A stretch of 39,707 bases of DNA from positions 1-39,707 of the IMG/VR virus record IMGVR_UViG_3300028044_000025; one strand, given 5' to 3'. The position numbers were made by a program, and so were the translations under genes. The stretch is from a virus. Positions within the stretch are counted from its first letter, which is position 1. Every line of letters starts with the position of its first letter. Positions 1,287-36,711 of this stretch are shown here, piece by piece. Below the pieces are notes generated by a model that saw only the letters and a program-made list of their open reading frames with translations, searched no databases and was not told where the DNA came from.

Positions 1287-3692
1287 ATGGCAACAAGAAT
1301 GCAACAGCGCAGAGGAACTGCAGCTCAATGGGTTTCTACAAACTCTGGCAACGGTCCTATCCTCAATGCTGGTGAAATCGGATTTGAAACCGACACAAAT
1401 AAATTTAAAATTGGTGATGGAACAAATCACTGGATCAACCTTGATTACTTCATTGATGCTAACTCAACAGTAAACCCAGCATTTGGCTCAAGCATTGTTT
1501 TTGAAGGTGCAACTGCGAATGCTTTTGAGACGACAGTTCAGGTTACAGATCCAACTGCTGATAGAATTTTAACTCTTCCAGATTCAACAGGAACGATTGC
1601 CACACAAGAATATGTAGATTCAGCAGCAGCTAATGCAACTTTTGATTCAGCTTCTGCAGCAGGTACTGGACTTGACTGGAATGCTTCTACTGATCAATTT
1701 AATATTGATTCAACTGTAACAACCAATGATGGAGTACAGACCCTTACAAATAAAACATTAACTAGCCCGACAATTACTGGAGCTACATTTAATGATTCAT
1801 CTATAATCTTTGAAGGTTCGTCTGCAGATGCTCACGAAACTACTCTTACAGTAACAAACCCTACAGCAGATAGAACAATTACATTCCCTGATGCAACAGG
1901 AACATTGGTTCTATCTGATGGCAGTGGAAACCTTGCAGTTTCTGGTAATCTTACAGTAAATGGAGCTACAACATATTTAGTATCTAATGAACTTGTTATT
2001 ACAGATAAAAATATAATTTTAGCAGCAACAGAGTTTCCAACAAATATAACAGCAAGCGGTGGTGGAATAACTGTTAAGGGCACTACAGATAAAACTTTTT
2101 CATACAATGACTCATCTGATACATGGTCTTCATCAGAAAGCCTAAACCTTCCTTCTGGAAAGTCTTACAAGATAAATGGAGTTAATTTAGGAGCATTCAG
2201 TGAAACATTAAGCAATAAAACTATCTCTAGTTCAGACAATACTATTTCTATTGCTCCTTCAAACATATCTGGTGTTACTGTAACTGCAACACAAATTAAC
2301 TATCTAACTGGAGTAACCTCAGCTATTCAAACTCAGATTACTGATAAAGCACCTCTTGCTTCACCATCATTTACTGGAGACGTAGTTCTTCCATCAACAA
2401 CCTCAATAGGCGATGTTTCTTCAATAGAAATAGGTTATGTTAATGGCGTAACTTCTGCAATTCAAACTCAGCTAAATAATAAGCAAGCAGTTGTTGCAAA
2501 TGTTTCTGATACTGAAATTGGATACCTTGATGGTGTTACTTCTTCCATTCAAACACAATTAGATGATAAATCAACTGCCTCTAAGACTGAAACTCTTACA
2601 AATAAAACTTTAACCTCTCCAGTCATCAACACACCTACTGGAATTACAAGTTCAGATGTAGGACTTGGAAGTGTTAATAATACTTCAGATGCAGACAAGC
2701 CAGTTTCAACTGCAACACAAACAGCACTTGATCTAAAGGCAAACCTATCAGGAGCAACATTTACTGGCGCTATAACGCTTCACGCCGATCCATCATCATC
2801 GTTACACGCAGCAACTAAGCAGTATGTTGATAACACAGCATCTGGAATTATTGCAAAGCCACAGGTACTTGGAGCAACAACAGCAAACATTGACGCTACA
2901 TATAGCAATGGAACAGCAGGCGTTGGAGCAACACTTACACACAACACGAACGGTGCATTTCCTGCAGAAGCAGGTGGAGCAAGTGGATGGGCTGTTGGCA
3001 AGGGTATTCTTGTAAAGAACCAAACTAACAAGGCTCAAAATGGTAGATATTTTATTTCAAACATGGGATCTGCCTCTACTCCTTATGTACTTACTCGCTG
3101 TGGATATTGCGATGAAGCATCAGAAATTCCAGGAGCATATATCTTTGTTCAAGATGGAACAAACGCTGGAACTGGATGGATTCAAGTAGTAGCCGATCCA
3201 ACAACATTTGTTGTAGGAACAGACAACATTGATGTTTATCAATTCTCAGGATCAGGAACAATTACAGCAGGCACAAATATTTCTGTAAGCGGAAATGAAG
3301 TTTCTGTAGTTGCCACTCCTTCACTTTCAGGAGTTGCTTTCTCAGATGGAACACAGACAACAGAAGGTGTTCCTTCACGTACACCAATTATTCAGAAGAC
3401 AGCATCATATACACTTTCAGAACTAACTGAAAGAGATGATTTAATTGAAATGTCATCATCTTCAGCGATTACTCTTTCAATTCCTACAGATGCTACACTA
3501 AATTATCCAATCGGAACATCTATTGATATTCTTCAAACTGGAACAGGTCAGGTAACAATTGCAGCAGTAACACCTGGAACTACAACAGTAAATGCAACAC
3601 CAGGCTTAAAACTTCGTACAACTTGGTCATCTGCAACTCTCTTTAAGAGAGCAGCAAATACATGGGTTGTCTTCGGCGACTTGACAGCGTAA
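1287..3692 (+). CDS. Large tail fibre / receptor-binding protein
   Basis: An 801-residue fibre. The first 50 residues (MATRMQQRRGTAAQW, then AGEIGFETDT and KFKIGDG) match the N-terminal domain found in many phage tail fibres and in the major tropism determinant family, which attaches the fibre to the tail. The body is built of repeats: two 37-residue units starting SSIVFEG/SSIIFEG (residues 68-104 and 171-207), TNKTLTSP phrases, and three GVTSxIQTQ units (about residues 342-424). An AATKQYVD phrase follows, then a module near 575-680 shared with the protein at the left edge. The C-terminal 130 residues (from about SRTPIIQKT) look like a separate beta domain that may be the knob. GAGGAGA at 1274-1280 gives a good ribosome site. 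The likely role is host-surface recognition, inferred from family resemblance. Confidence 0.8.
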   Translation: MATRMQQRRGTAAQWVSTNSGNGPILNAGEIGFETDTNKFKIGDGTNHWINLDYFIDANSTVNPAFGSSIVFEGATANAFETTVQVTDPTADRILTLPDSTGTIATQEYVDSAAANATFDSASAAGTGLDWNASTDQFNIDSTVTTNDGVQTLTNKTLTSPTITGATFNDSSIIFEGSSADAHETTLTVTNPTADRTITFPDATGTLVLSDGSGNLAVSGNLTVNGATTYLVSNELVITDKNIILAATEFPTNITASGGGITVKGTTDKTFSYNDSSDTWSSSESLNLPSGKSYKINGVNLGAFSETLSNKTISSSDNTISIAPSNISGVTVTATQINYLTGVTSAIQTQITDKAPLASPSFTGDVVLPSTTSIGDVSSIEIGYVNGVTSAIQTQLNNKQAVVANVSDTEIGYLDGVTSSIQTQLDDKSTASKTETLTNKTLTSPVINTPTGITSSDVGLGSVNNTSDADKPVSTATQTALDLKANLSGATFTGAITLHADPSSSLHAATKQYVDNTASGIIAKPQVLGATTANIDATYSNGTAGVGATLTHNTNGAFPAEAGGASGWAVGKGILVKNQTNKAQNGRYFISNMGSASTPYVLTRCGYCDEASEIPGAYIFVQDGTNAGTGWIQVVADPTTFVVGTDNIDVYQFSGSGTITAGTNISVSGNEVSVVATPSLSGVAFSDGTQTTEGVPSRTPIIQKTASYTLSELTERDDLIEMSSSSAITLSIPTDATLNYPIGTSIDILQTGTGQVTIAAVTPGTTTVNATPGLKLRTTWSSATLFKRAANTWVVFGDLTA
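1488..1907 (+). repeat. Duplicated 111-base fibre unit (1488-1598 and 1797-1907)
   Basis: Two in-frame copies encode nearly the same 37 residues, each beginning SSI(V/I)FEG, with T(A/V)DPTADR/TNPTADR in the middle and (P/L)D(S/A)TGT near the end. Between them lies a TNKTLTSPTITG phrase. They are protein-level repeats of the fibre shaft; the DNA has diverged, so the duplication is not recent. Confidence 0.7.
2310..2558 (+). repeat. Three GVTSxIQTQ units in the fibre shaft
   Basis: In-frame 27-base blocks at 2310-2336, 2445-2471 and 2532-2558 encode GVTSAIQTQ, GVTSAIQTQ and GVTSSIQTQ, each preceded by an I-x-Y-(L/V)-(T/N/D) phrase. This is a common pattern in trimeric phage fibre shafts. Confidence 0.75.
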
Positions 3693-3713: not shown

Positions 3714-4547
3714 ATGGCAGCAGGTAAGAAGATAGGCAAGAAGTCCCAAGCATCAAATGACTTTCTAGTACCATCTCAGGTAACTTCATTAACAGCTACT
3801 GATGTTGGTACAAGTAGACCATACTTAGCTACAGCCAATACAACTTCTGCAGCTTCTGCTGCTGGAACTGGAGCATCTGTAAATCTTTCTTGGACACTTC
3901 CAGCAGGATCTCCAGCAGCCACTTCTTATACAATTACTACAACCCCATCAACATATACTGTTAATACTGGAACTTCAGGTACAACTTATACTTTTCAAGG
4001 ACTAGCATCAGCAACAAGTTATACGTTTACAGTAGTAGGAACTAATGCTTCAGGATCTTCTGTTTCAGCAACATCATCTTCTGTAACAGCTACAACTGTT
4101 CCAGCAACAATGTCAGCTCCAACAGCAACTGCCCAGGTTAATCAAAACTCTGTTGCTTTTACTGCACCAGCAAATGGCGGTAAGGCAATCACTGGATATA
4201 CAGTTACTGGAAGCGATGCAACAACTGGTACAGGAGCCTCATCTCCAATTGTAATTGCTGATACTGCAGGAACATCACAGACATATACCGTAGTAGCAAC
4301 AAATGGCAACGGAAATTCACTTGCATCTCCCGCTTCAAATAACGTAACAACTTTAGCACCAAGCTTTTTCTCACCACCGTTCTTCCCACCGTTCTTCCCA
4401 CCGTTCTTCCCACCGTTCTTCCCACCAAGCTTTTTCTCACCACCGTTCTTCCCACCTTCATTTGGATGCCAAGTATGCGGCATCTGCTGCCTGTACGGAC
4501 CATGTGAATATGGCTGTGGCCCATGCGACTTTTGGTGTGACGACTAG
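3714..4547 (+). CDS. fn3-domain virion protein with PPFF repeats and a cysteine-rich tail
   Basis: A 277-residue protein with AAAGGGG (3699-3705) eight bases before the ATG. After a basic N-terminus (MAAGKKIGKKSQ) come two fibronectin-type-III-like domains: about residues 20-130 (the YTF-GLASATSYTFTV phrase is diagnostic) and 132-215. Residues 217-249 are a Phe-Pro-Ser stretch of alternating PPFF units. The last 27 residues carry eight cysteines in the order C-x2-C-x2-CC-x4-C-x3-C-x2-C-x3-C, then DD. Such a tail could bind metal or form disulfides. The fn3 domains suggest a surface decoration that binds carbohydrate or other virion proteins. The downstream cassette encodes prolyl-hydroxylase-like enzymes, so the PPFF tract is a candidate substrate (inference). 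I know of no assigned function. Confidence 0.75.
   Translation: MAAGKKIGKKSQASNDFLVPSQVTSLTATDVGTSRPYLATANTTSAASAAGTGASVNLSWTLPAGSPAATSYTITTTPSTYTVNTGTSGTTYTFQGLASATSYTFTVVGTNASGSSVSATSSSVTATTVPATMSAPTATAQVNQNSVAFTAPANGGKAITGYTVTGSDATTGTGASSPIVIADTAGTSQTYTVVATNGNGNSLASPASNNVTTLAPSFFSPPFFPPFFPPFFPPFFPPSFFSPPFFPPSFGCQVCGICCLYGPCEYGCGPCDFWCDD
4374..4457 (+). repeat. 12-base tandem repeat encoding PPFF
   Basis: Four perfect copies of CCACCGTTCTTC run from 4374 to 4421. A fifth copy lies at 4440-4451, reached through a spacer encoding PSFFS that duplicates the spacer just before the first copy. The unit length is a multiple of three, so gain or loss of copies keeps the frame. Near-perfect identity suggests recent expansion. 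Confidence 0.9.
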
Positions 4548-4552
4548 AGATA

Positions 4553-4561
4553 TGGTATAAT
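4553..4561 (+). promoter_or_regulatory. Extended -10 promoter, leaderless type
   Basis: TGGTATAAT, with TATAAT at 4556-4561 and only six bases before the ATG at 4568, so the expected start of transcription coincides with the start codon. A weak TTGGTG at 4532-4537 could serve as a -35 box with an 18-base gap. No ribosome site lies inside the implied transcript. Confidence 0.7.
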
Positions 4562-4567
4562 AAAACT

Positions 4568-4807
4568 ATGATAATGAACGTATATAAAGATGAAAATATA
4601 TTGTTTTCTACAAAAGATAGTGTTTTAATAACATTTTTTGAAAATTTAGAAAGCAATATAGAGTATCAAATAAAGCCAAGCAATTCTGGTAAGAATTTTC
4701 ACATAAATTATAAACTTAATGGTGAAGATCAGCTAAAACTAGGTGTTCCAGAATATATTGCAGAAGCAATAGTTAACAATTATAGATTTGATATTGTAGA
4801 TGACTGA
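4568..4807 (+). CDS. Small protein of unknown function (leaderless, first gene of the accessory cassette)
   Basis: A 79-residue acidic protein that I do not recognise. It starts directly at the predicted transcription start of the promoter at 4553-4561, which supports the ATG at 4568; a second in-frame ATG two codons later is possible. The sequence has beta-strand-like stretches (NILFSTKDSVLITFF, YQIKPS) and no membrane segment, signal peptide or cysteines. The end overlaps the next gene by eight bases, so translation of the zinc-ribbon protein is probably coupled to it. It begins the transcript that seems to lead into the oxygenase genes, but nothing in the sequence ties it to their chemistry. 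Confidence 0.6.
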   Translation: MIMNVYKDENILFSTKDSVLITFFENLESNIEYQIKPSNSGKNFHINYKLNGEDQLKLGVPEYIAEAIVNNYRFDIVDD

Positions 4808-5039
4808 TAGCTTAACTCCTTGGGAAAGATATAAGCAAAACCTAGGAGAAGCAAGACCCTGGGATATATTAAATCCAAAAATAGAACATGTAAGTCAAGA
4901 AAAGCTAGAGCATAGGCTAAGCATATGTGAGGCTTGCCCAGAATTAATAAAACTAACTCACCAGTGCAAAAAATGTGGATGTTTTATGAAAGTAAAAGCA
5001 AAAATAGAAATTGCAACATGCCCACTGAAAAAGTGGTAG
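4800..5039 (+). CDS. Small zinc-ribbon protein
   Basis: A 79-residue protein whose ATG overlaps the previous stop. It opens with a Trp-rich segment (TPWERYKQNLG, ARPWDIL), then has CEAC at about residues 42-45, C-x2-CGC at 58-63 and CPLKKW at the end, giving enough cysteines for one structural zinc site. Proteins with this layout (PW-RY near the start, CPELIKLT-x2-CKKCGCFM, C-terminal CP-x2-KW) are familiar from marine and freshwater phages, often near 2OG oxygenase genes; no function is established that I can name. The neighbourhood and overlap suggest it acts with the oxygenase cassette, or is a small partner or DNA/protein-binding factor; this is inference. Confidence 0.7.
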   Translation: MTDSLTPWERYKQNLGEARPWDILNPKIEHVSQEKLEHRLSICEACPELIKLTHQCKKCGCFMKVKAKIEIATCPLKKW

Positions 5040-5083
5040 AATTACATATATAGATTATATACATAGATAGGGGTAAAATAAAA

Positions 5084-5737
5084 ATGCAATCTTTCTTAAA
5101 TAAAGAAGAAATATTTCCTGGCATATTTGTTTATAGAGATGTAATTAAAAAAGATTTAAACATAATAGAAAGAGTTGAAGATTTTATTAAAAAAAATCCG
5201 CAACAGTCATGGCAAGAGGCAATGGTTGGCTATCAACAAAAATTTCCAGAATATAGGGATTGCCTAGACTTTAAAATTCAAAAAAACACAAATCCAAGTA
5301 TTGGTCCTCAAGATGTTGAACTAAATAATATTTGGCAGGATGCCTATAACGCACAGATTAATGCCGTAACTGATTATTGCACAATGTACAACATTAAAAT
5401 GGAATATTGGGAAGCAATGAATTTTATTAAATATGGCCCAGGACAACATTTTCAAGAACATGCAGACCATGGTTTTTCATATATAGCAACAGTTTCATTA
5501 GTTGCTTACCCCAATGATGACTATGAGGGTGGAGAGTTGTTTTTTCCAAAGCTTAATGTTAACATAAAGCCCAAGGCTGGAGATTTATACATATTCCCAT
5601 CAACATATTTATTCTCACATAGAGCAATGCCAGTAACTAGTGGATTAAAATATTCTATTGTAACTATGTTAGATTATAATGATAATACTCACAATATAGA
5701 ATATCAGTCATTGATTCAAAAAAGACTAAATCCATAA
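5084..5737 (+). CDS. 2-oxoglutarate/Fe(II) oxygenase 1 (prolyl 4-hydroxylase-like)
   Basis: A 217-residue protein with the double-stranded beta-helix oxygenase signature in its second half. The iron-binding residues are visible: His126 and Asp128 in the HAD motif, and His179 in LFSHRAM. Lys189 (SGLKYS) is placed to bind the 2-oxoglutarate carboxylate. Between them lies the DDYEGGELFFP phrase and KPKAGDLYIFPS, both typical of the P4Hc/2OG-FeII_Oxy_3 group. These enzymes couple decarboxylation of 2-oxoglutarate to hydroxylation of a protein side chain, often proline, though phage members have unproven substrates. TAGGGGT (5068-5074) is a ribosome site. The stop overlaps the next ATG as TAATG. 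It is the first of five such genes in this cassette. Confidence 0.88.
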   Translation: MQSFLNKEEIFPGIFVYRDVIKKDLNIIERVEDFIKKNPQQSWQEAMVGYQQKFPEYRDCLDFKIQKNTNPSIGPQDVELNNIWQDAYNAQINAVTDYCTMYNIKMEYWEAMNFIKYGPGQHFQEHADHGFSYIATVSLVAYPNDDYEGGELFFPKLNVNIKPKAGDLYIFPSTYLFSHRAMPVTSGLKYSIVTMLDYNDNTHNIEYQSLIQKRLNP

Positions 5738-6438
5738 TGTACACAATAGATGTTTATGAACTTAGAGAGGGATATGGGAAACTAGATCCTCTTTCTATTA
5801 AAAGAGAATGGATGGATGAAACATGGGATGCCCACGCATACAAGTGTTTTCCAGTTACCCTAACTAACGGTCTTGGATGGGGAATATCTTTTCCAGAAGA
5901 CATCACTTTTATTTGGGACGGAATATCAGACACTAGTCCAGACCATGTAAGGGTATTGTCTGGCAATGAATATGTTTCTACTGGAAGATCAAATGCCACA
6001 ATTAGTTTTAATACTGGACTGATGTTTAGAACTGATCAAAATACAAGCATATTGCAGATGCCAGTTCCCAATCAATTTATTGATGGTATTCAACCATTTA
6101 CAACTCTCATAAGTACTTCCTTTTATAAGGGGGAGTTGCCATGTGCATGGAGAATAACTAGGCCAAATGTAGAAATTACAATTAAAGCAGGAACTCCTGT
6201 GATATCTATTTTGCCAATATCTTTGGGAAACATTAATAATTCTGAAATGGTAGTTAAGTCTATCAAGGATTTACCAACAGACCATTTTAATGATTTTGAC
6301 TATTCCAGCATAGTTTATGAGCTAAATAAACAGGGTAAGTGGTCTAATTTTTATAGAGATTCTGTAGACCCAGATGGAAAAAGCATAGGATCACATGAAG
6401 TAAAGTCAATTAGGCTAAAGGTTGTTGAAAATAAATAG
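5737..6438 (+). CDS. DUF6065-like protein within the oxygenase cassette
   Basis: A 233-residue protein starting inside the TAATG overlap with oxygenase 1, with no ribosome site of its own, so translation is probably coupled. It lacks an HxD...H iron triad in the pattern of its neighbours. From memory it resembles the DUF6065 family: an early FPV-x-LTNGLGWGI-like strand, a DGIQPFTTLIST segment, then WRITRPN and an AGTPVISILPISL strand. That family has no firmly assigned biochemical role. Its fold looks beta-rich and cupin-like by eye. Being the only non-oxygenase sandwiched in the cassette suggests it works in the same pathway, perhaps as a substrate-binding or second-step enzyme; this is inference. 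Confidence 0.6.
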   Translation: MYTIDVYELREGYGKLDPLSIKREWMDETWDAHAYKCFPVTLTNGLGWGISFPEDITFIWDGISDTSPDHVRVLSGNEYVSTGRSNATISFNTGLMFRTDQNTSILQMPVPNQFIDGIQPFTTLISTSFYKGELPCAWRITRPNVEITIKAGTPVISILPISLGNINNSEMVVKSIKDLPTDHFNDFDYSSIVYELNKQGKWSNFYRDSVDPDGKSIGSHEVKSIRLKVVENK

Positions 6439-6458
6439 ATTTTTATTTTATATAAAAA

Positions 6459-6467
6459 TGGTAGAAT
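6459..6467 (+). promoter_or_regulatory. Probable extended -10 promoter for oxygenase 2
   Basis: TGGTAGAAT, one mismatch from TGnTATAAT. Transcription would start near 6474, leaving a 32-base leader with the ribosome site GGGAGG at 6494-6499. It follows an AT-only inverted repeat (6440-6460) after the previous gene. Confidence 0.45.
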
Positions 6468-6505
6468 AGATATATAAATAGTCGCATGTATTAGGGAGGT
6501 AAGAT

Positions 6506-7183
6506 ATGGAAATAACAAATAAAAACCACTTGGTTGGCGCTCCAGTGTCAGCAACGCCGTCTGGATTTTTTGGTAATTCTATGGACAATATTGTAGAATT
6601 AGAAAATTTTTTAACACTAGAAGAAAGAAAAAGATTATCAGATTTTGCAATGAACAATAAAGTTTGGGATATTACTGAAAGTCACAAAGATGAAGATGGT
6701 CTTGTTTTGTATGATGCAAACATTTGGGCTAATAGAGTGGCAACATATTTTTCTTTAATGAAGTCAGATCCTTCTATTTTAGACTTAATTCAAGATATGA
6801 TTAGAAGGCTTAAAATAGAGGTAGATAAATTTTTTCAGGTTGATGTTCGTGAAACTGGTCCAGCTATTGTTCGTTGGCCAGTAGGTGCAAGACAAGAACC
6901 TCATGCAGATAAAGAATTTCATATTGGAGAAGAGCGTGGAAGACCAAACGATTTTCCACATTATGACATAGCATCTTTATTTTATTTTAATGACGAATAT
7001 GAAGGTGGTGAGCTTTATTTTCCACTTCAAGGTATTGAGTTCAAACCAAAAGCTGGAGCAGCATACTTTTTCCCAGGAGATAGGTATTATGTTCACGGCG
7101 TAAGACCAGTAAAATCTGGACATAGATTTACATCACCATTTTTTTGGACTATAATGAAACATACAGGAGAAAGACAACCATGA
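6506..7183 (+). CDS. 2-oxoglutarate/Fe(II) oxygenase 2
   Basis: A 225-residue member of the P4Hc-like group. Iron ligands are His133 and Asp135 (PHADKEF) and His197 (YYVHGV); Arg207 (SGHRFTS) is the expected 2-oxoglutarate anchor. The DEYEGGELYFP and FKPKAGAAYFFPG phrases match the group. An N-terminal segment (about 1-45) before the helix-rich part is not shared with oxygenase 1. GGGAGG at 6494-6499 is one of the best ribosome sites in the cassette, spaced six bases from the ATG, and a candidate promoter lies just upstream, so this gene may be made independently of gene 1. The stop overlaps the next ATG as ATGA. The substrate is unknown. Confidence 0.88.
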   Translation: MEITNKNHLVGAPVSATPSGFFGNSMDNIVELENFLTLEERKRLSDFAMNNKVWDITESHKDEDGLVLYDANIWANRVATYFSLMKSDPSILDLIQDMIRRLKIEVDKFFQVDVRETGPAIVRWPVGARQEPHADKEFHIGEERGRPNDFPHYDIASLFYFNDEYEGGELYFPLQGIEFKPKAGAAYFFPGDRYYVHGVRPVKSGHRFTSPFFWTIMKHTGERQP

Positions 7184-7995
7184 GCAAACTAGAATATGTA
7201 GAGATTTACCCAAAAGTAGACGTATACAGAAATGTATTAAAAAGCCCTGAGCAAATGTATAAGGTAATGAGTGAGTCAGAAAAAACATCACAGGGAAAGT
7301 ATTTCTTAAAAACATGGGATCCATGGGCACACTTTGGTACATACACTCAAAAGAAAGATATGCGTGAAATTACATCAGAGCAGACAGATGAAGAAATGTT
7401 CATAAAAGAAAAAGCATTTGTTGATGAAGTAGAAGATGCATACAATAAGGTAATTTTAGATTATGTAGAAAGACAGGGTATAAATCTGCCAGATGGGTGG
7501 AGGTTTAGTGGATGTTCTTATTCCAAGTATAATCCTTCACTTGATCTAATGAATAATAAAATGACTATGCAGTATCATACAGATCACATAACCTCTCAAA
7601 AAGATATGCCTGGAGAGAAGTTTTTTATAACATGCACAATGTATATAAATGATGATTATGATGGTGGAGACATTGAATTCTTTATAGACGATAAACTCAT
7701 TAATCATAAGCCAGTCGCTGGAGACATACTGGTGTTTCCATCTACAGAGCCATATTATCATGGTGTAAAAACTATTGAAAAGAATGAAAAATTTTTTGTA
7801 AGAAATTTTGTCATGATTCCATTTGATGGAACTAAAGAATGGCTAAACAATCAAAAAACTTTTGGTGCATACAAATGGGCTCAAATGGAAGCTGAAAGAA
7901 TTAAGTACGAAGATCCAAAAAATATGAGATATTTACAAAATGGAAAACCAGTCTTGTATGATGAATTGCCCAACATAAAAGGAGATAAGAAATAA
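7180..7995 (+). CDS. 2-oxoglutarate/Fe(II) oxygenase 3
   Basis: 271 residues, taking the ATG at 7180 rather than the upstream ATG at 7144; AGGAGA (7165-7170) is well spaced for 7180, and the upstream start would overlap the preceding gene by 40 bases. Iron ligands are His133 and Asp135 (YHTDHIT) and His194 (YYHGVK). The 2-oxoglutarate anchor is Lys204 or Arg208 (EKFFVRNF). The strand pair NDDYDGGDIEF and KPVAGDILVFPS fits the family. Compared with the other four, it has a longer N-terminal part and a C-terminal tail of about 55 residues rich in Trp, Tyr, Lys and Glu. It joins oxygenase 2 by ATGA and oxygenase 4 by TAATG, so these three are translated together. Confidence 0.85.
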   Translation: MSKLEYVEIYPKVDVYRNVLKSPEQMYKVMSESEKTSQGKYFLKTWDPWAHFGTYTQKKDMREITSEQTDEEMFIKEKAFVDEVEDAYNKVILDYVERQGINLPDGWRFSGCSYSKYNPSLDLMNNKMTMQYHTDHITSQKDMPGEKFFITCTMYINDDYDGGDIEFFIDDKLINHKPVAGDILVFPSTEPYYHGVKTIEKNEKFFVRNFVMIPFDGTKEWLNNQKTFGAYKWAQMEAERIKYEDPKNMRYLQNGKPVLYDELPNIKGDKK

Positions 7996-8753
7996 TGGAA
8001 AGAGATATGATTATAACAAGACATAAATCAGACATTGTAACTTATGAAAACTTTCTTACTAAAGAAGAATGTGAGTCTATCATAAAGGTGTTAGACATAA
8101 AGATGGAAAAGGGCGAACTATCATGGATGCCAATTTCTTTTTATGAGTCATACTCATCTGGAATGCCAGAAGTAAATGACCCAGATACAATTGCTTGTGG
8201 ACTTCCAGGAGACTTTTTTCAGGTTTTAAGACAAAGGGTGATTAATGCAACAGCAGATATGGCTGATAAAAATCCTGAACAAATGTCACAGATAAGCTGG
8301 CACTCTCAACGATGGGCTCCAGGAGCATTTGCAAATATGCATTCAGATAATACTGATAATGACGGACATTCTGGAGCATTTACTAGAAGCAGATATGCAA
8401 CATTTATTTATCTCAATGATGACTTTGAAGATGGTGTTTTAAACTTTAAGAATGGTTTAACAATAATTCCACAAGCTGGAAAACTTGCCACGTTTGCTGG
8501 AGGCTTTGAGAATATGCATGAGGTTACAACAGTTAAGAAATCAATCAGATACACTCTAGGTTCATTCTGGGATGATAGAGAAGAGTCAGATTATCCACAA
8601 GAAGTTAGAGATGCTTGGGCAGAAGAGCTTGCTAAGGTGAGGGCATATCAAAAAGAAGAACAAAAACAGTGGGAAGAAATAAGACAAGATGGTTTACGAA
8701 TAAAGTCTGATGGGTCTAAATATCCAGCAAAAGATGTAGAAGGTGATAAATAA
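7995..8753 (+). CDS. 2-oxoglutarate/Fe(II) oxygenase 4
   Basis: 252 residues starting in a TAATG overlap; AAAAGGAGAT upstream is a ribosome site, and Met5 is an alternative start. Iron ligands are His116 and Asp118 (NMHSDNT) and His175 (ENMHEVT); Arg185 (SIRYTLG) should bind 2-oxoglutarate. The usual DDYEGGEL strand is changed to DDFEDGVLNF. This copy is the most divergent of the five by eye, with an insertion (TDNDGHSGAFTRS) after the HxD motif, and a charged, coiled-coil-like C-terminus (residues about 195-252) ending in Asp-Lys. These differences suggest a different substrate from copies 1, 2 and 5. Confidence 0.85.
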   Translation: MERDMIITRHKSDIVTYENFLTKEECESIIKVLDIKMEKGELSWMPISFYESYSSGMPEVNDPDTIACGLPGDFFQVLRQRVINATADMADKNPEQMSQISWHSQRWAPGAFANMHSDNTDNDGHSGAFTRSRYATFIYLNDDFEDGVLNFKNGLTIIPQAGKLATFAGGFENMHEVTTVKKSIRYTLGSFWDDREESDYPQEVRDAWAEELAKVRAYQKEEQKQWEEIRQDGLRIKSDGSKYPAKDVEGDK

Positions 8754-9386
8754 ATGTACACTATGTTTGATTTAAAAAGTGTTCAAGATGGCATCTATTA
8801 CTTTGAAAATGTTATTAGCTACGAAACAGAACTATTGGATTTAACAAACACGATAGATTTAGACGAAAAATCTCATATAAGAATACCAAAATGGGAGCCA
8901 TGGTATTCTAGTAACGATATGTCAACCATGTATGGTCAAAAAAAGTTTATCAATGTTTCTAATTTAAAAAAATCTACTGGAGATGATTTATTAGATAAAA
9001 ATACTCTTTATATAATAAACAGCTTGCTTATGGCACCAGAGATGTGCGCTATTAATTTTTGCAAGTTTAACAAAATTGATCAATCTGAAATTAATCTAGA
9101 TCTAAACTATATATCTTTAAACAGGTATGACTCTGGAAAAGGTATGGGGCACCACTATGATGGTCAAGACGGAGACTCTAATCTTAGATATTCTTTTGTT
9201 GTGTATCTAAATGATGATTATGAAGGCGGAGAGATTAGCTTTCCAAATCAAAATGTTACCATTAAGCCTAAAGCAGGCAGCCTAGTGATGTTCCCATCTC
9301 AACAGCCGTACATCCATGAATCAAAACCAGTGCTATCTGGAGTAAAGTATATGTATACTACACATTGGGTAAATAAAACAAACTAA
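8754..9386 (+). CDS. 2-oxoglutarate/Fe(II) oxygenase 5
   Basis: 210 residues, directly abutting gene 4, with GAAGGTG (8737-8743) as ribosome site. Iron ligands are His134 and Asp136 in GHHYDGQ and His188 in YIHESK; Lys198 (SGVKYMY) is the expected 2-oxoglutarate contact. The DDYEGGEISFP and IKPKAGSLVMFPS phrases are close to those in copy 1, and the two also end their catalytic domains the same way (S-G-x-K-Y), so copies 1 and 5 may be the most closely related pair. It is the last gene of the cassette; the terminator at 9444-9474 follows 57 bases later. The substrate is unknown. Confidence 0.87.
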   Translation: MYTMFDLKSVQDGIYYFENVISYETELLDLTNTIDLDEKSHIRIPKWEPWYSSNDMSTMYGQKKFINVSNLKKSTGDDLLDKNTLYIINSLLMAPEMCAINFCKFNKIDQSEINLDLNYISLNRYDSGKGMGHHYDGQDGDSNLRYSFVVYLNDDYEGGEISFPNQNVTIKPKAGSLVMFPSQQPYIHESKPVLSGVKYMYTTHWVNKTN

Positions 9387-16143: not shown

Positions 16144-16509
16144 TTATTCTCTAATAAGATATAGAGAGGCAGCCCTGAGAATATCGGGGCTGTCTTTCAT
16201 CATTCCTAAGCCAATATTACAATTACGACATAATAGCCCACGAACTTCTCCAGTAGCATGATCATGATCTACAACTAGATTTTCAAAAGATTTACAAATA
16301 GCACACAAACCACTTTGGTCTGAAAATAATTTTTGTTTTTGTCCTTTGATAAAGGTATATCCATTTTGCCTTGCTCCACGTCTATCTTTATAATCTTGGT
16401 TTCTAGTTTTATATCTACAAGAATGGCAAACGTTTACACGTCTTCCATTTCCTTTATTGACAAATTTTTTTTCTTCCATAGTATTTTTACAGTGTATGCA
16501 GGTTCTCAT
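16144..16509 (-). CDS. HNH endonuclease, endonuclease VII-like, reverse strand
   Basis: 121 residues, the only gene on the minus strand. The C-terminal half is an endonuclease VII-type zinc/HNH fold: Cys69-x2-Cys72, the DHDH motif at 81-84, GLLC-x2-C at 91-97 with Asn98, and the LGMMKDSPDIL helix. Two more CxxC pairs (Cys4/Cys7 and Cys28/Cys31) make a second zinc site at the N-terminus. Such free-standing enzymes cut DNA and often behave as homing endonucleases that spread between phage genomes. It sits alone between the capsid gene and the next structural gene and has its own promoter, a typical mobile position. Its relative at 21199 shares the C-terminal motif CNIGLG plus a DxPxxL helix. 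The start is fixed by the minus-strand -10 six bases upstream. Confidence 0.9.
   Translation of the reverse strand: MRTCIHCKNTMEEKKFVNKGNGRRVNVCHSCRYKTRNQDYKDRRGARQNGYTFIKGQKQKLFSDQSGLCAICKSFENLVVDHDHATGEVRGLLCRNCNIGLGMMKDSPDILRAASLYLIRE
16168..16198 (+). terminator. Probable terminator after the capsid gene
   Basis: An 8-pair stem (16168-16175 with 16187-16194, one G-T wobble) with an 11-base loop, then TTTC. The T-run is short, so efficiency is doubtful. It overlaps the last codons of the reverse-strand endonuclease gene. Confidence 0.5.
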
Positions 16510-21198: not shown

Positions 21199-21741
21199 AT
21201 GAAAACATGTTCTTTTGATAGTTGCACAAATAAATCAATATCGCTTGGGTATTGTGATAAGCACTATCGTAGATTTAAAAAATATGGAAGTGCTGATAAA
21301 GTACATACATTTATCCCCAAGGTATGCTATATAGATAACTGTAATAAGCAGTCAAGATCAAAAGGTTTATGTGAGTTACATTATAGGAGGCTAATAAAGA
21401 CTGGAACCACAGAATACGTAAAGGTAACAAAATCATGTTCAGTTATAGGATGTGAGAGAAAACACGTAGCAAAGAGATTGTGTGGAATGCACTATGAAAT
21501 GAAAACTCAAAAAATATCTATAGATGACAACGCTATAAAAATTATTAATAATCATAGTGGTTTCTGTGATATTTGTGGCACTGATTCACCAGGGTTTGGA
21601 CGTAAAAATTTTTGTATAGACCACAACCACTCCACTGGGTCTGTAAGAGGAATGCTTTGTCAAAAATGCAATATAGGTCTTGGTAATTTTAATGATGACC
21701 CAGAACTTCTAAAAAATGCAATAAACTACCTTAAAAACTAA
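21199..21741 (+). CDS. HNH endonuclease, endonuclease VII-like, with triple zinc motif
   Basis: 180 residues. The N-terminal 100 residues contain three copies of a C-x4-C-x9-C-x2-H motif (Cys4/9/19-His22, Cys43/48/58-His61, Cys80/85/95-His98), each followed by Tyr, likely zinc-binding and used to read DNA. The C-terminal part is an endonuclease VII fold: Cys123-x2-Cys126, DHNH at 141-144, GMLC-x2-C at 151-157 with Asn158, and a final DDPELL helix. This half is the relative of the minus-strand gene at 16144, whose N-terminus is different, so the catalytic module has been joined to different DNA-binding parts. It lies between the two tail chaperone paralogues and has its own promoter, which fits a homing endonuclease that invaded the spot. 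The target site is unknown. Confidence 0.9.
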   Translation: MKTCSFDSCTNKSISLGYCDKHYRRFKKYGSADKVHTFIPKVCYIDNCNKQSRSKGLCELHYRRLIKTGTTEYVKVTKSCSVIGCERKHVAKRLCGMHYEMKTQKISIDDNAIKIINNHSGFCDICGTDSPGFGRKNFCIDHNHSTGSVRGMLCQKCNIGLGNFNDDPELLKNAINYLKN

Positions 21742-22131: not shown

Positions 22132-25100
22132 ATGGCTGATACTCAGTCCAATATTCAAGTAAACATTGATACTGCTCAAGCACTTGCTAGTATCAAAAAC
22201 TTGCAGAGACAGATATCAGCCTTTCATTCCTCAATGGCTAAGGGTGGAGCTGCAGCTAATGCAGTTTCTACCCAGCTTCAGCAAACATTAATTAATTCAA
22301 TAAACGCTACTGGTCAGTTTTCAGCAGGAATAAGAACAATAAGGACTACCACTGAATCTTTTACTAATAGCCTAGAAAAAAATAAATTCTCACTAGGAGA
22401 ATATTTTAGATACGCTGGTGGTGCAACAAAAACTTTCGGCAGACTATTTAAGACTGAACATGACACCATAAATAAAGTAGCAAGAGAAAATGTAAAAGAT
22501 TTACAAACACAGTATATTCGTCTAGGTCGTGATGCTAGCGGAGCAATGAGGTCAATTGCTGTTAGACCTCTAGCTCTTGATATGACTGATCTTGGAACAA
22601 GAACACAGATAGCTGCTCAAAAGCAAGCAATCTTAAATCAACTTTTAAAACAAGGATCAACCAACCTTCTTAACTTTGGTAAAAATACCCAATGGGCAGG
22701 ACGCCAGCTTATGGTTGGTTTTACATTGCCACTTATTGCAGTTGGATCTGCTGCTTCCAAAACATTCATGGATATGGAAACACAGGCTATTAGATTTAAG
22801 AAGGTCTATGGAGATTTATTTACACCCACTGGAGAATCACAGCAAGCATTAAAGGATATTCAAGAGCTGGGTAAAGAGTTTACTAAATATGGCATTGCAG
22901 TTTCAACAACCGTTGGTCTAGCAGCAGAAGCTGCAGCAGCAGGCTTTAAAGGTGTTGATCTACAAAGACAGACAGCAGCAGCAACCAGACTTTCTATTCT
23001 TGGTCAGGTAGAAAGCCAAAAAGCACTTGAAACAACTATTGCATTACAAAATGCTTTCTCAATGTCTTCGGAAAATCTTTCGGAATCAATTGACTTTCTT
23101 AACGCAGTAGAAAACCAAACAGTACTTTCTCTTGATGACATTTCAACAGCTATTCCAAAAGCAGCTCCAGTTGTTCAACAACTTGGTGGTGATGTTAAAG
23201 ATTTAGCTTTCCTTATGACTGCTATGAAGGAAGGTGGAATTAATGCATCAGAAGGTGCTAACGCACTTAAGTCAGGACTTGCATCTTTAATTAATCCAAC
23301 TGGCAAAGCAAACGATATGCTTTTGAGTTTTGGAATTAATGCAAAAAAGATAGTTTTAGATAATAAGGGTGATCTTAAGAAAACTGTTGTTGAATTTGCA
23401 ACAGCTTTAAACATGCTTGATCCACTTAATAGAGCTCAAGCCATTGAGCAAATGTTTGGAAAGTTTCAGTTTGCACGTCTTTCTACACTATTTGCAAACG
23501 TAACAAAAGAAGGAACTCAAGCATCTCGTGTTCTTGATTTAGCTGGAGCTTCAGTTCAAGAACTTGCAGGTTTGGCAGAAAAAGAATTAGGCATGACTTC
23601 AGAGTCTGCTATGAATAAATTTAAGGGTGCTGTTGAAAATCTAAAGCTATCTCTTATTCCGCTTGGAGAACAATTCTTAAAAGCAGTAACACCAATTGCT
23701 GAATTTATTACAAAAGTATTAGACAAGTTTAATGGTTTTAGTGATAATACTAAAAAGATTATAGTTGTACTTACTGGAATAGTTGCAGGCCTTGGGCCAG
23801 TCTTGTTGATGACAGTTGGTTTGGTCATGAACGGTCTTGCAAACATGATTAAACTTTTTTCATTTTTAAAGTCATCATTTAATAAAACTGGACAGGCAAC
23901 TGCAATTCTAGGAACTGAAGTTCAGTATATGACCACTGAACAAAGAAATGCAGCAGCAGTTGCAGCATCTCTTGATCAGGTTCACACTAAACTTGCACAA
24001 ACATTTACCTCTGAAACAACAGCAGTTAATGCACTAACACGAGCATATCAAAGAGCAATTGCAGCTCAGTCACAATTTGTTCCAGTAGCTCCACCCATTA
24101 CTCGTGGACCAATTAAAAAGTTTGCAGACGGAAGACCATTAACCGTTGGCGGTACAGGAAATCAAGATTCTGAACTAGCACTCTTGATGCCTGGAGAGAC
24201 AGTAATACCAACAAAGATGAGTAAAAAGTATGGTCCACTTATTAATGCAATGATTGCAGGAAACATACCTGGATATGAGTTTGGAAAAGAAGACGGAACC
24301 CCTGGAGCATTTTCTTTTGGCGGAAGAGAGTTTCCAGTAAGACAAGCCTCAATCCCTTCAGTAAGAAGATTTATAGCACAAATACAACAACTAGGCGGAG
24401 TAGTCTCTAACATTGATGATGTTATATTTAAAGTACTAGAAGATATGACATCGGAACTTGAAAAAGGTGCAAAGATTACCAAGTCAGGCCTTGAAAAAGC
24501 TATGGCAGCCAGTAATGTAACTGAATTAGCAAAAAGCACAAAGGCAGCACAAGGTGGTTTTGAAGGAAATGCTGGCGCAGTAATGGCGCATGGATTGCCT
24601 AAGATTACACTAACTCCAGAACAAGTAAAGGCATTTGAAGGTACAACAGTTGGAACAAGACTAGCAGACAGAGTTCCAGGTGCACCAGTAACTGGATTAA
24701 GTAATATGGTGTTTCCAATGCCAGCTGCATTTAATCAAGACAGAATGACTGGAGCAGAAGGTGCACAGTGGATAGGTCAAAATAGAACAAGGTTTACAAC
24801 AGATTTTGCTGCACAGGCAGGCCTTAATCCAAATGATCCAGACTTACTTAGATTTGGAACTGCAGTTGGAAAGGCGCTAAAGTCTGCAGCATATAGAGGT
24901 GTAGTTGTAACTCAAGAAGATTTTGAAAGAATAATTAGTCAGGCACTGGAAAAAGAAATATTTGATGTTGGAAAAAATACTTCTACTGCAGTTAAAACAG
25001 CTTTTGCAGATGCAAAAAAAGTTTCTACACTTATGTTCCCAACCGTATCCCAATCTGGAAGAACGGGTTATAGTAGAGTTCCTGTTGCAGAAGATATGCG

Positions 25101-28100
25101 AGGAACAACCGTAGATGGTATACCACTAGCACAAGGGTCATCTTATAAAAATAGAGGCGTTACTGGCGCTCAGCATGAAGCAGCAGATAAGTTTACAATG
25201 AAAGCTGTTAGAGCAAGAGTCCGAAGATTCTTTACTAAAATGCCTAAAGAGGTAGAGCAAGAAGTTAAAGAAGTACTAGATATTAATTCACCATCAAGAG
25301 CTACCAAAAAGCTTGGTAATGATACAGCAACTGGATTTGTTTCTGGTGTTAAGGAACTTAATGATGAGGCAAGGGCTGCTGGTAAACAGGTAGGCTCATC
25401 AGTAGTTTCTGGTGCTACACAAAGTGGAAGAGCACGCAGGGTAGCCACAAGACCTCAAGGACCTGCACCAATTGGAGCTACACCACAACCAGGCATGAGA
25501 ATATTGCCAATCGTTCCTCCAAATCCTAAAGGACCAATTCCTCCAGATCCTAATGGGCCAACTCCAACAACTCAAACAAGAGGGCAGATGCTTGCTGATA
25601 GAGCAAGAGGTGTTGGTACAAGAATGAACTCTATGGGTGGAGGCATGGGTCTTTTGGGAGTCAACATGGGACTTTCAATGCTTCCAGATTTTGCTGGAAA
25701 AGGTGTTATACAAGGAGGTCTTGCAGGCGCCAATCTTGGCATGATGTTTGGTCCTTATGGAATGGCAGCTGGTGCAGCAATAGGATTAGTTACATCTGCT
25801 CTTGGCAATTTGATTGAAAAGCAAAAGCAACACAAAGCCATGACAGAGGCAATGTTTAAGTCAAGTTCATCTGTTGCAGAATTTTTTGGTAACGCTGTTG
25901 TAAATACAACAATGGAAGTGGGAAGACTTAGTAGCGCAACTCTGGCTGCTTCATCATCAACAGAAAATTTAGGAAAAAACTTTGGATATACAAATGAAGA
26001 ACTACAAAGGTTTAGTGATCTAGTTAACTCTCTACCACAAGGTAATCCTCTAAAAGATATTTTGGTTGGACTAGAAGATGTAACTGATCCAGAAGAAATA
26101 AAGAAAATTATAGACAATTTTGTTACAACTCAAGTTGCTGTTGGCCAAACTCTTCCAGAACAAGCTCAAAAGATCTATGATTTAATTTTAGCTCAAAGTG
26201 GCAACCAATCTATGGTTGGGCAATCTTTCTATAATTTTAAAACACAGTCTGAAGCTGTTTCTGCTACACTTAAAAATGCACGTAAAAATTCCGTAGATCT
26301 TGGTAATAGTTTAATTCAACTAACGGGTGCAGCATCTAATAGCTCATCTTTAATATTCATAAAATCAATTATTGACGGTATAGCCGCCTCTGGCATCAGC
26401 GCAGCAGAAGGTTTAAATGCTATGTACTATGCCTATATTAGAATAGGAAATCAGGGTGCAGCAGATTCATTACAAAACCTTAGAAGAATTCAGGGACTTA
26501 CCCAAGCTGAGATAAATAGCCTTATGATATCTGGTACACAGGGATTTAGTTATCCAGTTGGACAAGATACAACACGTAAAGAAATACTAGAAGCCCAAGC
26601 AGAATTTAATAAAACCCTTAAAGAGGAAGGTCTTGTAAAATCAGGAATAAAGCCGTACAAAAATTTGGCTGATGAAAAAACAATTTCTATTAAAAAAGAA
26701 ATTGACTTGTTAAAAAAGAGAAAAAAGATAATTGATGATCAAATTAAAAAAGAAAAACAAATTACAGATGAATTAAAGAAGCAAAATGACTATAGAGATA
26801 AACAATTAAAGATTGACAAAGATATAGTTGAAGCAAAAATACGTGGAGACTATATTGGAGCTGCTATTCTTTTACAAGAAAAAACAAGCTTAACTGATGA
26901 ATTTAATAAAGAAAATCAACTTTCAGCATTGCAGGCTCGTTCTGATGCTCTTCAACAACAGATAGAGGAAAGACAGTCTGTTAGTGATGATATGGTTGCA
27001 GCAATTCAATCCACAACAGATGCTGTTACAACAGGTTCAGCAAACATTGTCACAGCTGTTAGAGAAGCAGGTGGATTTCCAAGTATAGACGGAGATGGAA
27101 GTTTTAAATCACCACTTACTATTGCTTCAGATGCGGCATCAATAAAATCATATATAGAATCAGATAAACCATCAGCTGGAGTTTCAAACGAAGGGGTATC
27201 TGTAGGCACAGTAGCTCCTTCAGCAATTGATGCAGCAAAAGCTTATAATGAAACTTTTGCAGAAAAAATTACTAGGCTGACTCAGCCAGGTCTTAAAACA
27301 GAAATGCAAATGCTTGAAGATTATATCAGAACCCAGATTGTTTTTCCCCCAGACAAAAAACATATTTTTATTGAGATCAAAGGCAGTGATGGTTTATTTT
27401 ATAAATTTAAGGTTGCTAAAGATAAAAATGCAAAAAATGGTTTTATTAGAGTTGGTGATCCAATTAAGAAAGCAGCTGGTGGATACATTGAAAACTTTAT
27501 GGGTGGAGGAAATGTAAGAGGTGCTGGCACTGAGACTTCTGATTCTATAGCTGCATATCTTTCAAATGGCGAATATGTTATTAAAGCAAAATCTGTCAAG
27601 AAATATGGAACAGAAACTTTTGATGCTCTAAATGCTGGAAGGTTTGCTAATGGTGGACTAATTAAAGGATATGATAATGGTGGATTAGTCTCAGGTACAG
27701 GTATGTACAGCGGAAGAATGTTTATCCCACCAAAGTATTCAACATCATATTCTGAACAATACGATCCACGCACCAAGCAACCTTTTAAATTCCCCGCTGA
27801 AGGTGAAACTGTTCATTTTATGGAAGACATGCTGCCACCTTCAATGCGTCCGCAAAAGAGTTTGTTCGGACAATTTAAGCGTCTGTTTACCCCTTCACTT
27901 TGGGGAATAGGAAAAGATGTACGGGGTAAAGATGTAACAGGTGGAGTAGTAGATCTTCCTTATAATGTTGGATATAAAGGTATTTATAAGAATTTACTAT
28001 TCCCAACTGCACTAATGCTAGACAGAGCTACAAGGCTTGGCCCTAGTGGGCCGTCTGGTCTATATGGTAGCCCATTAGCTGGTACAAATAAAAAGAGAGA

Positions 28101-36168: not shown

Positions 36169-36711
36169 ATGCCATATGTTAAAATATCAGACCCTAATAT
36201 TATAGATCTTGCTGCTTGGCACCAAGTTATTAATGTTATTAATCAACACAGCGATACTCTTTCTGCTATCACAAATAATTTTGGTATTAAAGGAACTGCT
36301 GTTACAGACTGGAATGGCGAAACAGAAATTTACGAAGAATTTAATTCTGGCTCACAAAAAATACTTTATGGAAAGATTGTGATTGATACTAGAGCAGGTT
36401 CTGCCCAAGATTTAAACGTAAATAATTATCGTATGTTTTATCAAACAATAGATTTTGATAACGCTCCAAGTGGAACAGCTAGCTTTAAAGCAAAACCAGT
36501 TATAACAACTTCAATATCCCTTCCTGGCTCAACTGTTACATCAGATAGAAACGTTGGTCTTATCTGTACTGTAATTGCAGTAACTCAAACAAGTTTTACG
36601 GTTCGTGTTATTAAGGCAAGAGAATTAACTGCAGAGACAGGCACAACGATTGCTGATCCAAAGCCAATTCAAACTTTTCAAATAAACTGGATTGCTATAG
36701 GACCAAAGTAA
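36169..36711 (+). CDS. Minor tail / fibre-associated protein
   Basis: 180 residues with AGGAGA as ribosome site and its own promoter. The first 45 residues are helical (DLAAWHQVINVINQHSDTLSAITNNFG), followed by a beta-rich part in which the FNSGSQKILYGKIVIDTRAG and FTVRVIKARELTAETG stretches resemble the receptor-facing end of fibre proteins. A similar arrangement (helical anchor then beta domain) appears in small tail proteins next to fibres. It is followed by a TAATG overlap with the big fibre. It has no enzyme motif. Role in linking hub and fibre is inferred from position only. Confidence 0.6.
   Translation: MPYVKISDPNIIDLAAWHQVINVINQHSDTLSAITNNFGIKGTAVTDWNGETEIYEEFNSGSQKILYGKIVIDTRAGSAQDLNVNNYRMFYQTIDFDNAPSGTASFKAKPVITTSISLPGSTVTSDRNVGLICTVIAVTQTSFTVRVIKARELTAETGTTIADPKPIQTFQINWIAIGPK

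Follow-up and report, generated by a model that had tools for sequence, protein, structure and literature searches.

What does a phage do with several different prolyl-hydroxylase-like enzymes whose genes stand in a row directly behind a gene for a fibre-like protein? The question is raised by a 39.7-kb fragment of an uncultured virus (IMG/VR record IMGVR_UViG_3300028044_000025), which is taken here over its full length and is called the window below. In this window, a gene whose product carries tandem Pro-Pro-Phe-Phe repeats (the PPFF gene) is followed by genes for five 2-oxoglutarate- and Fe(II)-dependent (2OG-Fe(II)) oxygenases. A sequence-only reading of the same DNA had pointed out this arrangement, and we can confirm it with exact coordinates: the cassette runs in the direction of the PPFF gene, and in all five oxygenases the HxD...H iron triad and the lysine or arginine for 2-oxoglutarate are intact. 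The zinc-ribbon and DUF6065-like proteins that it had placed in the cassette are borne out as DUF6171 and DUF6065 family members (Table 1).

The combination is not peculiar to the window. A PPFF fibre gene with some five to eight different hydroxylase genes lined up directly behind it is found in hundreds of mostly uncultured aquatic phages. We consider it likely that the array hydroxylates the PPFF repeat in the infected cell and that two of its enzyme families, A1 and A2 (see below), act on proline. The best reading of the segment is that of a dedicated cassette for the hydroxylation, and hence maturation, of a fibre; the phage probably modifies its own fibre rather than altering the metabolism of its host.

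Linkage of the repeat and the oxygenase array

To count oxygenases in the vicinity of PPFF genes, we used a profile derived from the five enzymes of the window. They reach 5-9 per 10 kb within the 8 kb behind the PPFF genes and 0-0.8 per 10 kb on the upstream side. De-duplication left 110 PPFF loci with 7 kb or more of downstream sequence; the median number of downstream oxygenases in these is 6, and 99 of them have at least three. Upstream, 42/44 loci have none at all. Among 192 PPFF loci the recurrent downstream families are the oxygenases (798 genes in 158 loci), DUF6065 and DUF6171 (for both see Table 1); a diverged DUF6065 paralogue (hhalign probability 96.7) is found downstream in 99 of them.

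The linkage is also seen from other starting points. Of 80 loci anchored on DUF6065, 55 have a PPFF gene, 17 are cut off upstream and 8 show another context, that is, the PPFF gene is present in 55/63 untruncated loci; in this set the density of oxygenases is lower at 6-8 kb downstream. A search with the FN3 domain of the PPFF protein, in which the repeat was not used, recovers homologues that have the repeat and others that lack it. Where the repeat is of the PP-FF type there are mostly five to eight enzymes, where it is of the F-x-P-F-G type 0-1 enzymes lie nearby, and the loci L304-L306, in which the repeat is (PFF)n plus PPPF, have two. A different type of fibre repeat, F-x-P-F-G-V-F-G, with no oxygenase array nearby, was seen in L319-L321, L324, L325 and L327-L329. 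Finally, 22 contigs belonging to a single phage lineage were collected by their portal protein, and at least six enzymes are present in 9/11 contigs with FFPPFF vs 0/11 without it. The array is thus strictly downstream of the PPFF gene and near-obligately linked to it, and the two are gained and lost together within one lineage.

Some cassettes contain additional genes, namely for a sulfotransferase (19 loci), an Asp/Asn hydroxylase (17) or a glutathione-peroxidase-like protein (19), which hint at further chemistry. Such extended cassettes, with sulfotransferase, Asp/Asn beta-hydroxylase, glutathione-peroxidase-like or TauD-type oxygenase genes, are seen in L274, L206, L064 and L043.

The enzyme set follows the spelling of the repeat

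Clustering of the oxygenases shows that the arrays are stereotyped, chiefly A-A-B-D-C-F-E and A-B-D-C-G. Family A has two branches: A1, found in each of the 105 arrays examined, and A2, whose usual place is ahead of A1. The presence of A2 goes with the way the repeat is spelled: it was found in 62/62 loci with F-P-[FY]-F-P in the repeat vs 2/43 others. This prediction was written down before two new scans were made, and 51 new loci were then scored. A2 was present in 26/26 of the new loci with the motif and in 0/25 of those without, while A1 was present in 51/51. In a third set of loci A2 accompanies the motif in 18/18 cases. This count includes L679, which had stood as an exception (17/18) and was rejected as one when a full A2 gene, skipped by the open reading frame (ORF) filter, was found there. 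At the other end of the array, family H takes the place of G in pure PPGFFAPP repeats.

Shared descent and other explanations

Could the match reflect lineage instead of substrate? The repeat and the array are adjacent and the array types are few and stereotyped, so physical linkage and shared ancestry might couple them, with both recombining as one block. On the tree of the FN3 domains, however, the motif and A2 change about 13 times each, and of the supported independent pairs 7 are concordant and none is discordant; when all 140 loci are included, the changes rise to about 20 for each trait and the pairs to about 10 concordant vs 0 discordant (p about 0.002). As a control for linkage we used the tail of the fibre, Hint/intein-like or Cys-rich, which is nearer to the array than the repeat is. 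The Hint tail does not track A2 (Fisher p=0.35; tree pairs 1.3 vs 1.2), and the weak correlation of the Cys-rich tail with A2 (p=0.003) is gone in the tree-based pairs (0.9 vs 0.9). Since the tails that lie between the repeat and the array do not track A2 and the tree pairs do agree, simple co-transfer fails to explain the match. FN3 homologues whose repeat lacks PP have, moreover, no array. We regard coupling by linkage and ancestry as unlikely.

Another explanation is that the oxygenases act on host targets, such as EF-Tu, ribosomal proteins or nitrogen or 2-oxoglutarate metabolism, and merely adjoin the fibre gene. This is how phage 2OG oxygenases are usually filed in the literature, as auxiliary metabolic genes, including a role in modulating 2-oxoglutarate levels (PMC10611076, PMC10580990), and bacterial prolyl 4-hydroxylases (P4Hs) that modify EF-Tu are among the fold matches of A1. 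There is little reason, however, why enzymes directed at the host should vary with the presence and the spelling of a fibre repeat or come as five to eight different ones per locus. The oxygenase loci of named phages that we inspected are single or scattered among replication and hypothetical genes, with no fibre-linked arrays, and altogether a host target seems quite improbable to us.

A different virion protein as the target of the enzymes, for example the upstream Mtd_N fibre or the Pro-Thr fibre at the right end of the window that the sequence-only reading had offered as a second target, is very improbable: the Pro-Thr protein does exist (a real (TP)n run at residues about 842-905 of the tail-protein ORF 36711-39707, which runs off the window), hydroxyproline in Pro-Thr and Ser-Pro repeats is known elsewhere and the top fold matches of A1 include an algal P4H with (Ser-Pro)5, but the enzyme content follows the PPFF-type repeat and the arrays sit directly behind the PPFF gene across lineages, so that this target found no support.

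Hydroxylation of the PPFF repeat by the neighbouring array, the other half of that earlier proposal, is supported by the linkage, by the joint gain and loss, by the motif match in loci outside the training set and by the tree; the hydroxylation itself is deduced from these patterns. Several observations weigh against it. The survey of relatives for one trait without the other, which had been named in advance as a way to refute the proposal, did turn up exceptions, even if they are rare: 8/110 PPFF loci have no oxygenase downstream, contig G004 has the repeat and no enzyme in its 56-kb fragment, and one small DUF6065 group has no visible PPFF gene; contig G010 has one enzyme. The A2-motif rule was post hoc in the training set, and the test loci, which share few 31-mers with it owing to a 31-mer filter, are nevertheless evolutionarily related. 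A similar rule, by which family G would accompany P-P-x-F-F, held in training (20/23 vs 3/82) but failed as a prediction fixed beforehand, with only 6/25 of the new loci following it, and was dropped. The apparent need of families B, C and D for PP-FF comes from two loci (L304, L306); all further loci had PP-FF, and the new loci are uninformative on this point because none of them lacked it. The number of repeats and the number of enzymes are not correlated (rho 0.17, p=0.10). Lastly, the location of the PPFF protein in the virion is itself read only from its domains and its neighbours.

What the enzymes are

Of 788 related enzymes, at least 99% retain the ligands for iron and 2-oxoglutarate. 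Among proteins of solved structure, the closest in a sequence-profile comparison are the prolyl 4-hydroxylase of Bacillus anthracis, P3H1, PiuC, the enzyme of the algal virus PBCV-1 and PHD2. For the structure model of A1, the best fold in the PDB is the PBCV-1 enzyme vCPH (5c5t, 1.7e-10), and the best 50 PDB matches are all peptidyl-prolyl hydroxylases. PHD2 entries abound in the fold library, so more weight belongs to the top ranks, where several different prolyl hydroxylases appear, than to the count. The fold comparison concerns A1 alone, which by its model would be a peptidyl-prolyl hydroxylase. Families B and G have weak sequence matches to PiuC/PKHD and P4H, family C to P3H1, and family D had no match in the same comparison.

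We also considered DUF6065 as a further oxygenase and rejected this, as its model (pLDDT, the model confidence score, 90.1) matches dUTPase folds and not the oxygenase fold; the best PDB matches are dUTPases with an E value of 1.1e-4 and a modest TM score of 0.41 by query. Speculatively, it could perhaps serve as a scaffold.

The PPFF protein and its repeat

The PPFF protein contains an FN3 domain (PF00041, 1.3e-10, residues about 51-119) and ends in APSFFSPPFFPPFFPPFFPPFFPPSFFSPPFFPPSFGCQVC...CDD. PPFF occurs 5 times in it, vs 0-2 times in 20,000 shuffles of the same residues. On the DNA level the core of the repeat is a 12-bp unit repeated 4.4 times, perfect at 4374-4426. Relatives spell the repeat with varying synonymous codons (TTC/TTT, CCA/CCG/CCT/CCC); therefore it is the protein sequence of the repeat that is kept. 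Glycine periodicity of the collagen Gly-X-Y type is absent from the P-P-F-F repeat.

With its FN3 domain, the Mtd_N fibre gene directly upstream and homologues of which some have S74 or lambda J-like regions, the protein appears to be a phage tail-fibre or adhesin-like protein. Other homologues have intein-like regions. In many PPFF fibres a Hint/intein-like domain replaces the Cys-rich tail (27/98 FN3 fibres scored), for instance in L140, where Pfam Intein_splicing is below the cut-off, in L309 (CIDEDTPI...VVHN), and in L303, L312, L313, L331, L332 and L333. Possibly, fibres with such tails process themselves after the repeat.

The PPFFPPFFPP pattern has at least 120 matches in viral contigs. 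In its strict form it has just 26 matches, mostly single, in 257 billion bases of bacterial and archaeal genomes, for which reason we rejected a bacterial origin of the repeat.

Gene order and host of the window

All genes of interest are on the + strand, in the order given in Table 1, and the last oxygenase is followed by a class II ribonucleotide reductase gene. Mtd_N fibre gene and PPFF gene are separated by 21 bp, and several genes of the cassette abut or overlap in an operon-like manner. For family D, the ATG at 7180 is probably the start, rather than position 7144, because it is preceded by AGGAGA and gives a 4-nt overlap with the previous stop.

Table 1. Positions of the fibre genes and the oxygenase cassette in the window (aa, amino acids; E values are for the family named)
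Feature	Position	Strand	Remarks
Mtd_N-type tail-fibre protein	1287..3692	+	directly upstream of the PPFF gene; usual upstream neighbour (149/192 PPFF loci)
PPFF fibre protein, 277 aa, presumed substrate	3714..4547	+	N-terminal segment, FN3, second FN3-like stretch, C-terminal (PPFF)n, Cys-rich tail
Repeat tract PSFFSPPFFPPFFPPFFPPFFPPSFFSPPFFPPSF	4359..4469	+	has PPFF and PPxFF/FFxPP; no F-P-[FY]-F-P
Small protein, 79 aa, without known family	4568..4807	+	between fibre gene and zinc ribbon
DUF6171 zinc-ribbon-like protein	4800..5039	+	1e-7; family in 55/192 PPFF loci
Oxygenase family A1, universal array member	5084..5737	+	PF13640, 5.8e-13; model pLDDT 91.7; best folds all peptidyl-prolyl hydroxylases
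DUF6065 (PF19541), true member	5737..6438	+	2.8e-31; predicted dUTPase-like jelly roll; family in 138/192 PPFF loci, always downstream
Oxygenase family B (core)	6506..7183	+	PF13640, 1.2e-8
Oxygenase family D	7180..7995	+	listed ORF 7144-7995; PF13640, 2.3e-8
Oxygenase family C (core)	7995..8753	+	PF13640, 2.1e-7
Oxygenase family G	8754..9386	+	PF13640, 5.8e-15; last position, which varies (F+E or H in other arrays)

The host of the virus is likely to be actinobacterial, since the head maturation protease is 41% identical to proteases of Streptomyces phages and the ribonucleotide reductase is ~60% identical to the enzymes of Mycobacterium phage Gaia and Actinomycetia phage DSL-LC01. Elsewhere in the window there are two endonuclease VII/HNH-like ORFs, possibly homing endonucleases, of which one (16144-16509, - strand) lies antisense just past the major capsid gene and the other (21199-21741, + strand) between two phrog_10504 proteins. 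The ORF 22132-30693 of the tail region (2853 aa) has a Pro-rich stretch with 15 Pro in 40 residues.

A possible mechanism and its implications

We propose that the PPFF protein and the oxygenases would be made from the same block of genes, and that, inside the infected cell, the enzymes would hydroxylate the aromatic-proline repeat before the virion is assembled or during that process. A1, a member of every array, would work as a peptidyl-prolyl hydroxylase on the basic repeat, and the additional members on particular local sequences. A2 might act on single prolines between pairs of phenylalanine or tyrosine (F-P-[FY]-F-P), and the remaining enzymes on other positions, for example Phe, Tyr, spacer residues or the second of the two prolines in PP. 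If densely hydroxylated, the repeat, which is very greasy, could stay soluble and extended, or it could present a surface that is sticky or open to further modification. A sulfotransferase gene is present in some loci. In its strongest form this would amount to a combinatorial hydroxylation code, in which five to eight oxygenases each read a different repeat sequence, the product is a densely hydroxylated material other than collagen, and spelling and enzyme set co-evolve; this stronger form is tentative, and we lean slightly towards doubting it.

Few enzyme genes are more common in aquatic phages than those for 2OG-Fe(II) oxygenases, which usually carry the label of auxiliary metabolic genes of unknown target. 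For a large class of these there is now a concrete and testable candidate substrate, the repeat of the fibre next door. If hydroxylation of the repeat is true, phages run their own multi-enzyme protein hydroxylation for a surface fibre, which is apparently unprecedented in named phages. Natural variation would then have paired enzyme subfamilies with short peptide motifs; this can be tested with synthetic peptides and would yield a set of peptide hydroxylases, each specific for a motif. Caution would likewise be needed in counting such genes as evidence of metabolic reprogramming of the host.

Comparison with known systems

No relative of the PPFF protein or of DUF6065 was found in 50,697 named phages, nor a named relative by DNA, and the open-access literature yielded nothing on PPFF or on hydroxylation of phage fibres. 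Phage DSL-LC01 shares the ribonucleotide reductase, but among the PF13640 matches counted for A1 and G none is from it. This freshwater actinophage (L660) has several collagen-like proteins, and a tryptophan halogenase beside a glycosyltransferase, near its tail genes, perhaps another fibre-modification system. In a Baltic Sea survey, viral prolyl 4-hydroxylase was abundant and its use was called 'cryptic' (PMC9301287).

The cyanophage 2OG-Fe(II) oxygenases (PF13640, phrog_61), which are usually called auxiliary metabolic genes, share superfamily and Pfam family with the array enzymes. They differ in being less than 60% identical, single or scattered in the examples inspected, not behind a PPFF fibre, and without DUF6065. 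Tail fibres with FN3 domains or S74 chaperones resemble the PPFF protein in the FN3 domain, in the tail-gene neighbourhood and in the S74 or lambda J-like regions of some homologues, whereas the PPFF fibres have a C-terminal aromatic-proline repeat with its own hydroxylase array and sometimes an intein-like tail.

Virus-encoded prolyl hydroxylases as such and the hydroxylation of collagen-type repeats are already known. The PBCV-1 prolyl 4-hydroxylase is, like A1 by its predicted fold, a virus-encoded peptidyl-prolyl hydroxylase, and it reportedly acts on proline-rich peptides and on viral proteins (Eriksson et al. 1999, cited in PMC9301287). Unlike the enzymes described here, it is a single enzyme of a eukaryotic algal virus, 19% identical, with no array, fibre cassette or matching of motif and enzyme. 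In the maturation of collagen and hydroxyproline-rich proteins, one structural protein with repeats is modified at different positions by several 2OG oxygenases (C-P4H, P3H1 and lysyl hydroxylase; Cr-P4H on Ser-Pro repeats). P4H and P3H1 are related to the array enzymes in sequence or fold. The collagen repeat, however, is Gly-X-Y and not P-P-F-F, and the phage arrangement consists of one gene cluster without the eukaryotic processing machinery.

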